A DNA stretch of 64,000 bases from Avibacterium volantium (GTDB lineage: Bacteria; Pseudomonadota; Gammaproteobacteria; Enterobacterales; Pasteurellaceae). Location of the stretch: the NCBI RefSeq assembly GCF_900635775.1, contig NZ_LR134167.1, positions 2,166,477 through 2,230,476 of the forward strand. Reading direction: 5' to 3'. Below, in pieces: positions 12,990-20,260 of this stretch. The notes beneath the pieces are model-generated. The model saw only the letters and a list, made by a program, of their open reading frames with translations, was not told the origin of the DNA and did not search any database. The position numbers and the translations under genes are program-made. Each line of letters opens with the position of its first letter. Within the stretch, counting starts at the first letter, position 1.

Positions 12990-14271
12990 TGTAAACCTCT
13001 TTGAGTACCGCCAATAAGCCTTGCGTGAGCTGGCTGAGCTGGGCGGACGAAATAATAAAAGGAGGCATAATATACACCAAATGCCCAAAAGGACGTAGCC
13101 AAATGCCTTTTTCTACAAATTTTGGTTGCAATACAGCTAAATCCACTGGGGCTTTCATTTCTAACACGCCAATAGCGCCTAATACGCGTACTTCTTTCAC
13201 CGATTGGAAATTTTTTGCTGCCGCCAGTTCGGTTTTTAATTGCTGTTCAATGGCGTTTACCTTGCCTTGCCAATCGCTTTCCAATAATAAATCAATGGAT
13301 GCACTGGCAATGGCGCAAGCGAGCGGATTGCCCATAAAGGTTGGCCCGTGCATAAAACATTTTGCTTCGCCGTTGCAAATGGTTTCGGCAATATGTGCGG
13401 TGGTGACGGTGGCGGAAAGGGTTAAATAGCCGCCTGTTAAGGCTTTGCCTAAGCAGATAATATCAGGCTTGATGTTGGTATATTCTGTGGCAAACAGTTT
13501 GCCTGTACGCCCAAAGCCTGTGGCGATTTCATCAAAAATCAGCAAGACGCCATATTCATCACACAAGGCGCGCGCTTTTTCTAAATAGGTCGGCGAATAA
13601 AAATACATTCCCCCCGCACCTTGCACAATCGGCTCTAAAATTAAGGCGGCAATTTCACCGCTCTTTTCTGCCAGTAAATCTTTGAGCGGCTGAATATCAG
13701 CCTCTTGCCATTGTCCGTCAAAGGTGGTTTTCGGTTGCGGTAAAAAATATTGCACGGGCAGGCCTTTGGCAAACAGACTATGCATTCCGGTAATCGGATC
13801 GCACACGGACATTGCGTGCCAAGTGTCGCCGTGGTAGCCCGAACGAATGGTGGCGAATTTGTAACGCTGGCTTTCACCTTTGGCTTGCTGATATTGCACC
13901 GCCATTTTCATCGCCACTTCCACCGCCACCGAGCCACTATCGGCAAAGAAAATTTTATCCAAGCCCGCAGGCAATAATCGCACTAAACGCTGCGCCAATT
14001 CGCCAGCGGGATCGTGGGTAAATCCACCGAACATAATATGGCTCATTTTCTCTAACTGATCTTTCGCCGCTTGGTTCAATTTCGGGTGATTATAACCGTG
14101 TAACGCCGCCCACCAAGAAGACATTCCATCAATAAGCCGCTTGCCATTTTTCAACGTGATTTCCACCCCGTCCGCACGTTCCACCGCAAACATCGGCGCA
14201 TCGCTGTTAATGCGTGAATAAGGGTGCCAGATGTGGTTTTTATCGATATTAAGGAGGGATTGTTCTTGCAT
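12982..14271 (-). CDS. bioA: Adenosylmethionine-8-amino-7-oxononanoate aminotransferase
   Basis: PLP transaminase using S-adenosylmethionine as amino donor to make 7,8-diaminopelargonate. 429 residues; [12 protein letters not shown] holds the PLP-binding Asp (about 247) and [10 protein letters not shown] the Schiff-base lysine K276; IWHPYS near the start is BioA-specific. First gene of the bio operon. The ATG lies immediately at the edge of the repeat array, so its leader and weak ribosome site (AGG in AACAGGTTAAAAATG) are repeat-derived. bioB is not in this window. Confidence 0.95.
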
Positions 14272-14940
14272 TTTTAACCTGTTATTTCAGCAAACTTTAG
14301 GGAGAACGATGTATTCGCCCGCATCTCATATCATTTGGGGTAGGGACGGACCTGTGTCCGTCCGTATATCATCATTAATTTTCGGGCGAACACATAGGTG
14401 CCCCCCTACATCAATATAAACGAACACTGCTCTTTTTCACCTATCATTTCAGTAAATTCTAGGGAGAACGATGTATTCGCCCGCCTCTCATATCATTTTT
14501 TGTAGGGACGGACCTGCGTGTCCGTCCGTAATAAGCATTAATTTTCGGGCGCACACATAGGTGCGCCCCTACACCAATATAATAGAGAACGAGCAATGCT
14601 ATTTTTAACCTATAATTTCAGTAAATTCTAGGGAGAACCGATGTAGTCGTCAGTATCTCATATCATTTTTTGTAGGGACGGACCTGTGTCCGTCCGTATA
14701 TCATCATTAATTTTCGGGCACACACATAGGTGCGCCCCTACACCAATATAATAGAGAACGAACACTGCTCTTTTTCACCTATCATTTAAGTAAATTCTAG
14801 GGATAGCGATGTACTCACCCGAATCTCATATTATTTTTGGTAGGGACGGACCTGTGTGTCCGTCCGTAATAATCATTAATTTTCGGGCGCACACACAGGT
14901 GCGTTCCTACATCAATACAATCGAAAACGAACACTACCCC
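14272..14940. repeat. Four tandem ~165-bp repeats, each with two inverted copies of one hairpin
   Basis: Four head-to-tail units begin with ATTTCAG/ATTTAAG-type sequence near 14284, 14446, 14615 and 14784, with periods of 162-169 bases. Each holds a hairpin GGACGGAC-ctgt-GTCCGTCC (starting near 14344, 14506, 14676 and 14844), then a second hairpin GGGCGCAC-acata-GTGCGCCC in opposite orientation. Between them lies TTAATTTTCGGG. The hairpins are versions of one motif (GTAGGGRCGSACCT) with paired changes in both arms. Copy 1 and copy 4 have partly decayed second hairpins. No protein signal is real here: short frames starting MYSP are translations of the repeat. Similar palindromic motifs are scattered in other bacterial genomes; function unknown. 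Confidence 0.9.
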
Positions 14941-15973: not shown

Positions 15974-16606
15974 ATGTCAGAACAATTTTTTAACCAAGTC
16001 GCTTTAGATGATGTTTCTGCCAAAGGCAGTTACGGTATCGGTTTACAAATCGGTCAGCAATTAGTTGATAGCAAATTAGCAGTCAAAGCAGATGCCGTGG
16101 CGAAAGGGATCTTTGATGCGTTAAATCAAAATGCGCTAGCGATTGATTTAAACGAAGTGAGCCAAGCCTTACAACAACTGCAACAACAAGCCGCAGAAGC
16201 AGCGCAAGCCCAATTCAAAAAAATTGAAGAAGAAGGCAAAGCCTATCTTGCAGAAAATGCGAAAAAAGACGGCGTGAAAGTAACAGATTCAGGCTTACAA
16301 TATGAAGTGTTAGTGGAAGGTAACGGAAAAATCCCAAGCAAACAAGATCAAGTACGCGTTCATTACACAGGAACATTGCCAGATGGCACCGTATTCGACA
16401 GCTCCGTACAACGTGGCCAACCTGCTGAATTTCCTGTAAGCGGTGTAATCCCGGGTTGGGTTGAAGCCCTTTCAATGATGCCAGTTGGCTCAAAATGGAA
16501 ACTCACCATTCCACACAACCTTGCCTACGGCGAGCGCGGCGCAGGTGCAGCAATCCCACCATTTAGCACCTTAGTGTTTGAAGTGGAATTGTTGGATATT
16601 CTTTAA
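15974..16606 (+). CDS. fklB: FKBP-type peptidyl-prolyl cis-trans isomerase, FklB-like
   Basis: 210 residues: an N-terminal helical dimerisation domain (about 1-105; [12 protein letters not shown], then a Gln/Ala-rich helix), then a C-terminal FKBP domain (about 110-210) with [33 protein letters not shown] and [14 protein letters not shown]. No signal peptide, so cytosolic like E. coli FklB and unlike FkpA. Ribosome site GAAGGAAAA. Transcription ends at the hairpin 17 bases downstream. Confidence 0.93.
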
Positions 16607-16622
16607 TTTATCTTCCGCATAA

Positions 16623-16655
16623 AAAAGACCTAGCTATTTCGCTAGGTCTTTTCTT
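16623..16655 (+). terminator. Bidirectional terminator after fklB (copy A)
   Basis: Perfect 12-bp stem AAAAGACCTAGC / GCTAGGTCTTTT with loop TATTTC, followed by TTCTTTTC on plus and by T6 on minus. It serves fklB on the plus strand and the leftward lipoprotein gene on the minus strand. Confidence 0.9.
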
Positions 16656-16695
16656 TTCAGATTAGAAAAATTCTTGAAAAAACAACCGCACTTTG
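16623..16695 (+). repeat. Direct repeat copy A flanking the lipoprotein/XRE cassette
   Basis: Terminator hairpin followed by TTAGAAAAATTCTTGAAAAA and an uptake-signal core (ACCGCACTT). Nearly the same ~70 bases recur at 17602-17671. The copies differ only in the hairpin loop, two bases after it, and one base of the uptake core. Confidence 0.9.
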
Positions 16696-16753
16696 TTTTT
16701 TATCCTGTCGGTAGCGTTATACTAGAATAATTCTTATTGCTTAGGTAGAATGC

Positions 16754-17092
16754 TTACTTGTTAGCACAACCAGGTAAACTGCGATCCAAAACTTGTGTTC
16801 CTTCTGCAATATATTTTGTTCTAAATCCACTTTCTACAGAAATAACAACATCAGAAAGTGCGACTGCACATCGATCTGTTTCAATAGCTCTATCTACAGC
16901 ATTTTTCATATATACGATACCAAATGTGGTTTTATCTTCACCTTTAACTCTTTCACCAAGAACTAATTTTCCTGAATTAAGATTCACATTTTTCGTACTA
17001 GCCAATGTAAAATCAGCTACTCTGTGAGTGACACAAGCACTCAACATTAATGTAGTGGCTGCAACAAAAATAGACTTCGAAATAAGTTTCAT
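16754..17092 (-). CDS. Small predicted lipoprotein of unknown function
   Basis: 112 residues. A signal peptide with Lys at 2 and 6 and a hydrophobic core IFVAATTLML ends in the lipobox LSAC, so Cys20 is the predicted lipidated residue; residue 21 is Val, which does not suggest inner-membrane retention. The mature part is short and soluble, with two further cysteines (in TDRCAVAL and LPGCANK) that could form a disulfide. I do not recognise the family. It is divergent from the XRE regulator and shares a 127-base intergenic region with it; both lie between duplicated terminator blocks and look acquired. Confidence 0.75.
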   Translation of the reverse strand: MKLISKSIFVAATTLMLSACVTHRVADFTLASTKNVNLNSGKLVLGERVKGEDKTTFGIVYMKNAVDRAIETDRCAVALSDVVISVESGFRTKYIAEGTQVLDRSLPGCANK

Positions 17093-17136
17093 CGTTATAC
17101 CTCATAAAATATATGTTAGAATCTTTGATATTATTT

Positions 17137-17160
17137 ACTAGAGGAATATGTTTATCTAGT
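17137..17160. promoter_or_regulatory. Inverted repeat between lipoprotein and XRE genes, possible operator
   Basis: ACTAGA (17137-17142) and TCTAGT (17155-17160) are perfect 6-bp inverted arms 12 bases apart, centred in the divergent intergenic region. The position would suit autoregulation by the XRE protein. Based only on symmetry and position. Confidence 0.35.
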
Positions 17161-17219
17161 TATAAGTAGGTATAAAATACAATCAATAAAGGTGTTGACA
17201 AGTCAATAAGTGGTGAGCT

Positions 17220-17612
17220 ATGAAAGTTAAAGACCAAATAAAAATGAGAAGAGAAGCTAATAAATGGACGCAAGAGGAAATGGCAAATAGGTTACATATG
17301 TCAACCAATAATTACGCAAAACTAGAACGTGGAGAAACGAAACTCAACCTTCATCGTTTAGAGCAAATTGCTAATGTATTTAATATTGATGTCATTGAGC
17401 TGATGAATTCTGGGGAGAAAAATGTCACTTTTCTTATGAATGATCACAATACAAATTATTATGGTAGCTCAGAAAAACAGATACAAGAAAATGAAAAACT
17501 ACAATTAATCATCAACCACCAAAAAGAATTACTCTTGCAAAAAGACAACGAAATTAATGCACTAAAAACTCTCGTTGAGTTATTGCAGAAGAATACTATG
17601 CAAAAGACCTAG
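17220..17612 (+). CDS. XRE-family helix-turn-helix regulator with C-terminal coiled coil
   Basis: 130 residues. Residues about 3-62 are a Cro/C1-type HTH (IKMRREANKWTQEEMANRLH, then NNYAKLERGETKLNLHRLEQIANVF). After a linker, residues about 85-126 form a charged, leucine-spaced helix (NEKLQLIINHQKELLLQKDN), probably a coiled-coil dimerisation tail. Ribosome site GGTGAG. The stop codon TAG lies inside the left arm of the following terminator hairpin, so the 3' end of the gene and the flanking repeat are fused. AT-rich compared with its neighbours. Target genes unknown; the divergent lipoprotein gene is the obvious candidate. Confidence 0.85.
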   Translation: MKVKDQIKMRREANKWTQEEMANRLHMSTNNYAKLERGETKLNLHRLEQIANVFNIDVIELMNSGEKNVTFLMNDHNTNYYGSSEKQIQENEKLQLIINHQKELLLQKDNEINALKTLVELLQKNTMQKT

Positions 17613-17671
17613 CTTGGCTAGGTCTTTTCTTTTCCAATTAGAAAAATTCTTGAAAAAACAACCGCTCTTTT
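17602..17671 (+). repeat. Direct repeat copy B, with bidirectional terminator
   Basis: Second copy of the block at 16623. The hairpin arms GACCTAGC (17606-17613) and GCTAGGTC (17617-17624) have only a 3-base loop (TTG), followed by TTTTC. Then comes the shared TTAGAAAAATTCTTGAAAAA. Here the uptake-like core reads ACCGCTCTT instead of ACCGCACTT. It terminates the XRE gene on plus and mrcA on minus. Confidence 0.88.
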
Positions 17672-17686
17672 ATTTTCTTCATCTAG

Positions 17687-20260
17687 CTAAAATAACTCCT
17701 GTGGTTCAGAAGATTTTACACCACCGTTCAAACGCTCTAATAATTCAGGTGGTACATAATAACCTTTTTCCTCAACATAAGAGCGAGTAGGTTCTGTACC
17801 TTTGATGAAATACTCTTTACGCCCCTTTCCTGTGGAAAGTAGACCAGAAATGGTATCAATACTTTTTTCTATAATATTTTTCGGTATCGGGATCTCCCGT
17901 ACAGGAATATTTTTCAAGCTCGCTTTCATATAAGCAACCCACGCAGGCATTGCGGTTTGTGCGCCGGCTTCGCCTTTGCCTAAATTGCGTTTGTTGTCAT
18001 CAAAGCCAACATAAACCGCCGTGGTAATATTTGCCCCGAAACCGGCATACCAAGCCACTTTTGAATTATTGGTTGTCCCTGTTTTTCCACCAATATCAGA
18101 ACGCTTAATTTGATTTGCCATTCGCCAGCTTGTACCTTTCCAACCTAGACCTTGTTCGCCGTAAATTGCGGTATTCAATGCACTACGAATTAAGAAAGCT
18201 AATTCACCACTAATTACGCGAGGTGCATACTGCACTTGATCGTTGGCTTTTTTATCTTGCGCCATAAAATCAATTGCGTTTTCATCTAATTTTTTATTTT
18301 GGCGATCAAGTTCTGGAATATCATTAGGTTGCTCATCTTGATCTAGTTCTTCACCATTGGTGCTGCTATCCGTAGAAACTAAATTATCAGGCTTCTCTAA
18401 ATCAAGGTTTTTAAACCCATCTAATTTTTCAGTTTCCCCATAAATCACAGGAATGTTATCACAGGTAACACAAGCAATTTGTGGATTCGCAACAAACAGC
18501 TCTTTGCCGCTATTATCAAGGATTTTTTCAATAAGGTAAGGATTTACCAAGAAACCACCGTTATCAAACACCGCATAAGCACGAGCCATTTCAAGTGGGG
18601 TGAATGAAGCTGCCCCTAAAGCAAGGGCTTCGCTAGCGAAATATTGATCACGCTGGAAGCCAAAGCGTTGCAAGAAATCGGCGGTAAAATCAATACCTGC
18701 CATTTGGATTGCACGGATCGCAATCATATTTTTGGATTGCCCTAAGCCCACACGCAAGCGCATTGGGCCGTCATAACGATTTGGTGAGTTTTTCGGTGTC
18801 CACACCTTTTGCCCCGGTTTTTTGATCACGATAGGGGAATCTTGTAGCACGCTTGATAAGGTTAGCCCTTTTTCTAATGCGGCAGCATAAATGAAAGGCT
18901 TGATTGATGACCCCACTTGCACTAAAGATTGAGTAGCGCGGTTAAATTTGCTTTGCTCAAAGCTAAAGCCGCCCACTAAGGCTTCGATCGCACCATTATC
19001 ACTATTTAATGAAACTAAGGCAGAATTTACTTCTGGCACTTGAGAAAGTTGCCATTCACCATTACCACGCTGACGCAACCAAATTTGTTCGCCTGCTTTT
19101 GGTTGTCTTTTGCCTGCCCAGCGCATTGCTGCCGGGGAAAGCGTGATGCTGTTGCCATCATCTAATAATACTTTTGCGCCCGCTTTGCTAGTTTCCAATA
19201 CGGCAGCTGGCACTAAAGGCGCTGAATTAGGCAATTTTTTTAGCGCATCAATAATTTTATCTTCGTCCCAAGCGGTTTCGCCCTTTTTCCATAACACAGC
19301 CGCACCGCGGTAGCCGTGGCGCATATCATAAGCGAGCAAATTATCACGCACGGCTTTTTGCGCTTCGGCCTGATCGGCAGAAAGCACGGTAGTATAAACT
19401 TTATAACCACTAGTATAGGCGTTTTCTTCGCCAAAACGTTTCACCATTTCTTGGCGTACCATTTCGGTAACATAATCCGCTTTAAAATCTAACTGTGCAC
19501 CGTGATAGCTCGCTACGATAGGCTCGTTAATGGCTTCATCATATTCCGCTTTGCTGATGTATTGCATTTCTAACATTCGCCCTAGCACCACATTACGGCG
19601 TGCCGTTGCACGTTTAAGAGAATAGAGCGGATTCATTGTGGAAGGCGCTTTTGGCAAGCCTGCGATCACCGCCATTTCTGATAAGGTGAGCTGATCGAGC
19701 GATTTCCCGAAATAGGTTTTCGCAGCCGCCGCCACACCATAAGCGCGATAGCCAAGGTAAATCTTGTTCAAATATAGTTCTAAAATTTCATCTTTGCTTA
19801 GGGTGTTTTCAATTTCAATCGCTAAAATGGCTTCTTTCGCTTTACGCACGATATTTTTTTCTGGCGTTAAGAAGAAGTTACGCGCGAGCTGTTGAGTAAT
19901 GGTACTCGCCCCTTGTGAAGCACCGCCTTTAGTAATCGCAACACTCACCGCACGAGCAATGCCCACAGGATCTAAACCGTGATGTTCATAAAAACGGCTA
20001 TCTTCTGTGGCAAGCACCGCCTCAATTAATTTTTTTGGCACGTCATTCAGTTTCACGGGAATACGGCGCTGTTCGCCCACTTCACCAATGAGTTTGCCGT
20101 CAGCGGTATAAATCTGCATCGGTTGCTGTAATTCCACGGTTTTTAGGGAATCTACACTTGGCAAGCCTGATTTTAGTTGAACATAAATAATTCCTGCGAC
20201 AACACAGCCTAAAATGATCATTGTCAGCAAGCTACTTAAAATTAATTTTGCGATCCGCAT
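17687..20260 (-). CDS. mrcA: Penicillin-binding protein 1A
   Basis: Bifunctional class A peptidoglycan synthase. 857 residues: an N-terminal membrane anchor (about 7-28), a glycosyltransferase domain with EDSRFYEHHGLDP and QGASTITQQLARN, then an OB-like linker. The transpeptidase domain has SSIKPF (SxxK, about 430) and KTGTTNN (about 725). Divergent from comA, an arrangement known from Haemophilus (ponA-comA). A competence CRP-S site overlaps its start codon. Confidence 0.96.
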   Translation of the reverse strand: MRIAKLILSSLLTMIILGCVVAGIIYVQLKSGLPSVDSLKTVELQQPMQIYTADGKLIGEVGEQRRIPVKLNDVPKKLIEAVLATEDSRFYEHHGLDPVGIARAVSVAITKGGASQGASTITQQLARNFFLTPEKNIVRKAKEAILAIEIENTLSKDEILELYLNKIYLGYRAYGVAAAAKTYFGKSLDQLTLSEMAVIAGLPKAPSTMNPLYSLKRATARRNVVLGRMLEMQYISKAEYDEAINEPIVASYHGAQLDFKADYVTEMVRQEMVKRFGEENAYTSGYKVYTTVLSADQAEAQKAVRDNLLAYDMRHGYRGAAVLWKKGETAWDEDKIIDALKKLPNSAPLVPAAVLETSKAGAKVLLDDGNSITLSPAAMRWAGKRQPKAGEQIWLRQRGNGEWQLSQVPEVNSALVSLNSDNGAIEALVGGFSFEQSKFNRATQSLVQVGSSIKPFIYAAALEKGLTLSSVLQDSPIVIKKPGQKVWTPKNSPNRYDGPMRLRVGLGQSKNMIAIRAIQMAGIDFTADFLQRFGFQRDQYFASEALALGAASFTPLEMARAYAVFDNGGFLVNPYLIEKILDNSGKELFVANPQIACVTCDNIPVIYGETEKLDGFKNLDLEKPDNLVSTDSSTNGEELDQDEQPNDIPELDRQNKKLDENAIDFMAQDKKANDQVQYAPRVISGELAFLIRSALNTAIYGEQGLGWKGTSWRMANQIKRSDIGGKTGTTNNSKVAWYAGFGANITTAVYVGFDDNKRNLGKGEAGAQTAMPAWVAYMKASLKNIPVREIPIPKNIIEKSIDTISGLLSTGKGRKEYFIKGTEPTRSYVEEKGYYVPPELLERLNGGVKSSEPQELF

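Follow-up and report, generated by a model that had tools for sequence, protein, structure and literature searches.

Organization of the locus

The window, by which we mean the whole 64,000-nucleotide stretch of Avibacterium volantium DNA that was analysed, contains a lipoprotein gene and a divergent XRE regulator gene between fklB and mrcA, with a terminator and an uptake signal sequence (USS) on either side of the pair. The names fklB, mrcA, psd, dusC, uvrC, ssb, nusG and rplK were assigned from sequence and denote what we take these genes to be. The features of the site are as follows.

15974..16606, plus strand: fklB, conserved left neighbour (91–99% amino acid identity, six same-genus genomes)
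16623..16652, no strand: left, putatively native, terminator hairpin (repeat alignment, stem-pattern search, folding)
16662..16693, minus strand: left extended USS, AT tracts plus core AAGTGCGGT at 16685–16693
16722..16744, minus strand: probable remnant of a former mrcA 3' end, now degenerate (alignment to the empty-site mrcA tail)
16754..17092, minus strand: 112-aa lipoprotein gene of the phrog_7441 family (lipobox LSAC, PHROG profile)
17093..17219, no strand: divergent intergenic region, presumed shared operator and promoters (location between divergent genes)
17220..17612, plus strand: 130-aa XRE regulator (HTH_3, E 3.3e-13)
17602..17628, no strand: right, putatively imported, terminator hairpin with the XRE stop codon inside
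17638..17669, minus strand: right extended USS, core altered to AAGAGCGGT
17687..17960, minus strand: putatively imported 3' end of mrcA (right edge approximate; last 270 nt 74–77% identical to relatives G001, G004 and G005)
17687..20260, minus strand: mrcA, conserved right neighbour

The blocks on the two sides form a direct repeat, consisting of an identical piece of 13 nt (16623–16635 and 17602–17614) and an ungapped pair of 76 nt at 84% identity (16638–16713 and 17614–17689). Folding of either strand gives a strong hairpin for both blocks (energies of −16.3 to −20.9 kcal/mol, with z from −4.5 to −7.5). A consensus terminator scan found 0 terminators and called neither block, the probable cause being its handling of T-tails. 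Alignment of the repeats and folding of the hairpins bear out the first-pass annotation, which had placed terminator/USS blocks on both sides of the pair and the XRE stop codon within the repeat; that codon, at 17610–17612, falls inside the second stem. The 20-base block TTAGAAAAATTCTTGAAAAA, which had been listed as a separate element, turned out to be the A/T-tract part of the extended USS, with short matches at many places in these genomes. A USS is made up of a core plus AT tracts, as described in PMC7811141. The altered core on the right keeps its inner GCGG intact; cores are common, with 49 in the window.

The stem pattern, AGACCTAGC-N2-8-GCTAGGTCT, was searched for in 7 genomes of the genus, with the backwards pattern as a control. 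In the genome of the window (G000) it occurs at two places only, both at the fklB–mrcA site; elsewhere in the genus it occurs at two places in G001, one in G004 and one in G005, while none was found in G002, G003 or G006, and the control gave 0 in all 7 genomes. Because the stem is confined to this site and the control gave none, the repeat pair is neither a chance match nor a common terminator. Promoter-like matches in 16600–17700 were at chance level (4 found versus 4.4 expected). Upstream of psd, at 14271–14935 of the window, there are four copies of a 169-bp tandem repeat, about 79–88% identical where aligned to G001.

Filled and empty sites in related genomes

The fklB–mrcA site was searched for at the DNA level in 61 genomes; the genus sample comprised 7 genomes and the family sample 140 Pasteurellaceae genomes. 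An empty site, in which a single block joins fklB to mrcA, had been named as the thing to look for, and it was found in two relatives, G004 and G005. G001 has the lipoprotein/XRE pair at the same place as G000, and in G002, G003 and G006 fklB and mrcA are far apart.

The left side of the site in G000 closely matches the empty ones: positions 16601–16700 are 98–100% identical to both, and against G005 identity is 96–98% in 16501–16700, with 98% in 16601–16700, and then 87% across the final 39 bases of the alignment, which ends at 16739. The cassette is missing from G005 between the aligned left and right parts. To the right of it, identity to G005 is 89% in 17601–17700, which holds the terminator and USS, then 78, 69 and 87% in the successive stretches of 17701–18000, and 97% again from 18001. 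The last 270 nt of mrcA in G000 are 77, 74 and 75% identical to G001, G004 and G005, respectively, while the corresponding values for the gene body are 91, 97 and 96%. Among themselves these three genomes are 89–97% identical in both parts of mrcA, and it is therefore G000 that holds the odd mrcA end. A donor-type mrcA end was absent from the 140 family genomes, where the best match reached 75–76%.

Past its USS, the left block in G000 has 14 bases identical to the empty-site mrcA end, followed by scattered matches to about 16744, so that roughly 23 bp of the old gene end are represented. Since the left block continues into an mrcA end of the empty-site type, the ancestral site was presumably empty. 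The left junction of G001 differs, with a terminator lacking a USS and about 160 bp to which nothing substantial was matched among the loci compared. As the stem is doubled in G001 too, an earlier insertion in the fklB–mrcA gap would already have had two terminators.

Probable import of the pair by recombination

These comparisons give good support to the view that some 1.2 kb of foreign DNA entered an empty site, with donor and recipient each contributing a terminator, a USS and an mrcA tail. In the ancestor, fklB would have been followed by one terminator with a USS and then by mrcA, tail to tail; the donor would have been an unsampled relative in which the lipoprotein/XRE pair already adjoined mrcA. 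The DNA may have entered by natural transformation, with the right crossover inside mrcA near 17960 and the left joint at about 16745, a point shortly after the stop codon of the lipoprotein gene and within the final codons of the former mrcA. Judging from the sequence comparison, the second terminator, the second USS and the divergent mrcA end would have arrived with the donor DNA. The most plausible reading of the repeat is that it represents a native and an imported allele of a single terminator/USS/mrcA-end segment, with the cassette between them. Homology-facilitated illegitimate recombination, described for three competent species in PMC3240628, would produce this picture; as the donor is unseen, the left joint can be classed neither as illegitimate nor as homologous. 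The mosaic identity and the odd mrcA end agree with one of the two routes suggested by the first-pass annotation, recombination of taken-up DNA at the terminator, which here left two terminator copies. Two marks of import by recombination were found, namely relatives in which the site is empty and a mosaic tract whose edges can be placed; a third, an identified donor, was not found among the 140 family genomes. If this reading is right, doubled terminators can be footprints of import instead of target duplications.

Direct repeats at the flanks are also what a transposon or site-specific element inserted with target duplication would leave, and at 5 of the 90 XRE loci elsewhere there is an integrase-like ORF close by. 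Here such an insertion is highly improbable, since the repeats differ (84%), one of them continues into the putatively imported mrcA DNA, and the left junction of G001 is different. The ORF list between the repeats holds the two genes and short overlapping ORFs, with no transposase or integrase.

A further genome, G087, belongs to another genus and has the XRE gene (85%) and the lipoprotein gene (70%) adjoining fklB in the same orientation. Its flanking genes psd and fklB are 75 and 76% identical to those of G000 at the amino acid level, so the association could be an old one, and because fklB is the neighbour in G087 too, it would be older than the import event in G000. Next to the XRE gene, the G087 locus has two additional ORFs, a small one that looks secreted and one that is transposase-like. 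The latter abuts the XRE gene (L045, 5882–7090), and most of the 18 matches scored in the G087 genome cover the transposase end.

It could be argued that the cassette is ancestral beside fklB and that G004 and G005 lost it by recombination between the terminator repeats, which as direct repeats would permit deletion. The pair lies at the same place in G087 and G001, and in G087 its divergence is near that of the flanks, as for an old resident cassette with losses. Still, we regard this history as unlikely, because the left copy in G000 continues into an mrcA tail like that of the empty sites, G000 alone has the divergent mrcA end, and the pair is present in just 1 of the 6 genomes from the genus of G087 and in 2 of the 7 from the genus of G000. 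The first-pass annotation had stated that the duplication would be old and unrelated to acquisition if all relatives carried both genes here with diverged flanks. The adjacency to fklB is indeed common to G087, but carriage by all relatives did not hold, the lipoprotein being found by protein search in only 2 of the 7 genus genomes and 10 of the 140 family genomes.

Import of the pair with its terminator can be set beside insertions in H. influenzae. Martin et al. are said to have described, in 1998, a tryptophanase cluster between nlpD and mutS with USS-bearing repeats. The reported likeness is a gene insert in a competent relative with flanking repeats that carry uptake signals; the repeat here is mainly terminator, and one copy would have come with the imported neighbour gene. 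Transformants of H. influenzae take in donor-specific insertions of 1.2 and 2.7 kb with their flanks, according to PMC3145789. That was a laboratory event between strains, whereas the import here is deduced from sequence and has a non-allelic left joint and a doubled terminator. Hif KR494 has an insert with two 41-bp direct repeats (PMC3928620), which resembles the present one in that direct repeats bound it and its edges hold broken gene copies; it is larger, and its repeats are located in and near rnf genes instead of at a terminator.

The XRE family and its partner genes

Repressors of the RstR/CI type are short HTH proteins encoded divergently from a gene that they probably control. The XRE protein of the window is likewise short and divergent from a gene that it probably controls, but the partners in its family are many unrelated, mostly exported proteins. 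It matches HTH_3 with 49.9 bits against a Pfam gathering threshold of 23 (E 3.3e-13), and its C-terminal part looks coiled-coil-like by eye. Against the RstR family (NF041951) it scored 43.2 bits, below the curated cut-off of 80, and among solved structures it had no match at E 0.001. The regulator presumably represses its own gene and the partner gene. A search for a shared operator in front of the XRE genes revealed no common palindrome among 90 upstream regions.

Among the matches listed, the XRE family was matched at E 0.001 in 92 of the 140 Pasteurellaceae genomes, often several times in each. The best E was below 1e-10 in 78 of these 92, again among the matches listed, while the 14 genomes with weak best matches alone (E above 1e-10) may hold other XRE proteins. 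We examined 90 XRE loci among the matches listed, including all listed loci of the own genus. A divergent ORF lies beside the XRE gene in 82 of the 90. By a custom heuristic, which gives false positives such as the 149-aa partner of locus L098 and whose error the control shares, the divergent ORF carries an export signal at 67 of 90 loci versus 4 of 87 downstream neighbours; control gene starts gave 25 of 194, 5 of these being the XRE module itself. When loci were collapsed by shared neighbourhood, 31 of 44 groups had mostly exported partners. The 79 partners, some of them probably spurious ORFs (clusters 12 and 17), fall into 37 sequence clusters, 31 of which have an export signal in some member. 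Twenty partners were scanned with Pfam: matches above the cut-off include an outer-membrane barrel, a TbpB-like lipoprotein and an Excalibur protein, weaker ones are LPP20- and BamE-like, and many had no match. Some XRE partners are not exported.

Two vehicles for the spread of the XRE genes were tried and rejected: phages, because a single-protein scan of viral contigs gave 2 relatives only, and integrases, because only 5 of 90 flanks hold an integrase-like ORF. At one locus (L073) the XRE gene is tandemly duplicated (89% over 425 bp).

The first-pass annotation had suggested looking for the same gene pair at other terminators, and pairs of this kind do occur elsewhere: beside fklB in G087, and also in G157 (at dusC) and G088 (at ssb), which both have two tandem lipoproteins of the family beside more distant XREs (47 and 50%). 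The lipoprotein is found without this XRE alongside in G108 (Haemophilus seminalis), G067 (Actinobacillus ureae), G142, G033 and G133. In A. ureae (L047, 6399–8334), the stretch that separates ribosomal-protein genes from rpoB holds the lipoprotein gene, a gene pair read from its sequence as VapBC-like and a further HTH gene.

Exchange of partners at proposed regulator-anchored loci

On a tree of the XRE proteins with 86 rows, 11 of which lack a partner label, the partner labels require 42 changes, compared with 59.7 after shuffling; thus the pairs travel together yet do change. In one comparison of partners between loci, the change scored between clusters 2 and 4 arises falsely from the two genes standing in tandem, and partnerless rows did not count as swaps. 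XREs paired with a phrog_7441 lipoprotein occupy at least three places in a 36-row tree, with an AU p of 7e-79 against one clade in a test that assumes the group to have been named before the tree was seen.

Exchange is also seen between individual loci. G117 and G036 show 91% identity over a stretch that starts at −20 and ends 900 bp past the XRE gene, their partners differ, and 115 bp of the left flank are homologous again. Partners likewise differ between G003 and G002, which are constant to −125 at the same gene (uvrC), and between G035 and G140, constant to −132. At the dusC locus, G157, G108 and G144 have dusC, the XRE gene and upstream control DNA in common, the control DNA being shared to −136 by G157 and G108, including the partner start region, and to −91 by G157 and G144. 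The partners there are two phrog_7441 lipoproteins in G157, one 189-aa lipoprotein in G108 and two other lipoproteins in G144. G088 and G031 share only −110 to +377 (91%) and one 39-bp piece, and differ in flanks and partners.

Several arrangements of these loci were noted in passing. At L154 (G144) the XRE-adjacent partner lies between two copies of the control region, and an older-looking partner lies beyond. In G001 and G150 (L105, L133) a 247–264-aa gene is situated between the XRE gene and a lipoprotein gene, and this lipoprotein resembles the one directly beside the XRE gene in G108 (L115), where no gene lies between. At the uvrC-side locus of the own genus (L100, L107, L111), G003 and G005 have a partner of 328–347 aa plus a second gene, and G002 has a 180-aa partner that is HAD-like by sequence reading; these uvrC-side partners gave no Pfam match above the cut-off.

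Taken as sequence comparisons, these cases support the view that the loci are regulator-anchored and that genes for exported proteins are exchanged at them. With about an even chance of being right, we propose a docking arrangement: the XRE gene with its control DNA, constant out to a point that varies between −20 and about −136, would anchor many chromosomal sites across the Pasteurellaceae, where recombination with taken-up DNA would add and remove unrelated genes, mostly for exported proteins, beside the control region, and the pair in the window would be a loaded dock that moved into an empty site. The whole is probably best explained by import from an unsampled relative of a pair that is one of a family-wide, regulator-anchored set. 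Among the literature matches listed, an XRE family with exchanged partners is not dealt with. If true, these bacteria, many of them naturally competent, would have a shared, regulator-anchored way to change surface proteins gene by gene, without transposases. It would also yield a testable rule for which genes a site gains and for how an arriving surface gene comes under control.

The lipoprotein and its possible function

The lipoprotein matches phrog_7441 over nearly its full length (residues 6–111 to 3–116 of 118, E 1.7e-29), and its lipid-attachment cysteine, C20, is invariant in 14 aligned family sequences. From its signal, the protein is predicted to be exported and membrane-anchored. 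It matched no Pfam family and 0 PADLOC families, and its profile matched solved structures just in the first 31 positions, the signal region (E 0.012–0.013).

The first-pass annotation had suggested looking for the family in prophages, and it is indeed carried by phages: there are 13 phage records, and 189 stretches of viral contigs were matched. In three annotated enterobacterial phages the gene lies upstream of a tape-measure or long tail gene, with 0–2 listed genes between; in an Aeromonas phage the genes listed within 4 kb include none of this kind. Among the best 80 of the 189 viral loci, 40 of the 69 with enough DNA are followed on the same strand, at most 2.5 kb downstream, by the start of an ORF of 650 aa or more, and the XRE of the window had no match at E 1e-5 beside the lipoprotein in these 80.

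Because the family often lies slightly upstream of the tape-measure gene in enterobacterial phages, our best guess, a tentative one by analogy, is that the lipoprotein blocks superinfecting phages. The tested mEpimmI exclusion lipoproteins (Lpp) lie within the structural gene cluster, as stated in PMC11893012. They and Ltp (PMC3952083) resemble the lipoprotein of the window in being small phage lipoproteins, but no homology was found between Lpp and the window's protein, as checked for mEp021. A direct tie to tested exclusion lipoproteins was dropped, since mEp021, the one checked phage, which has a tested type-A protein and is in the phage collection searched, has no homologue.

A role in host or surface interaction, not phage exclusion, is quite conceivable, if somewhat short of an even chance. 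The partners at other loci, among them the outer-membrane barrel, TbpB-like and Excalibur proteins, favour it, whereas the occurrence of phrog_7441 in many phages, often near the tape-measure gene, does not. XRE regulators are common in toxin-antitoxin and defence systems, and the XRE of the window did match PADLOC, through HTH models only. That the pair is a toxin-antitoxin or intracellular defence system is nevertheless very unlikely: the lipoprotein partner has no match in PADLOC or Pfam, most of the examined partners of this XRE family carry export signals, and no listed system needing both genes was matched.

Uptake signals at other module ends

The first-pass annotation had generalized from this locus that terminators with uptake signals are entry points for small cassettes. 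The comparisons do not support this idea, as the USS excess at module ends is weak and a second site shows no doubling. At 20 of 86 loci a USS core is present no more than 130 bp from the stop codon of the XRE gene, compared with 29 of 198 other stop codons in the same DNA; only 2 were found by partner stop codons and 0 at both module ends. USS at module ends are thus only mildly more common. The second variable site lies between nusG and rplK, where visual inspection of the alignment showed no duplicate of the terminator. It is filled in G000 and G004 (99% alike), holds another version in G006, and is empty in G005 and G001. The filling in G000, outside the window, is a second XRE module of the same family (G000:C1:449399-452099; L098, L251).
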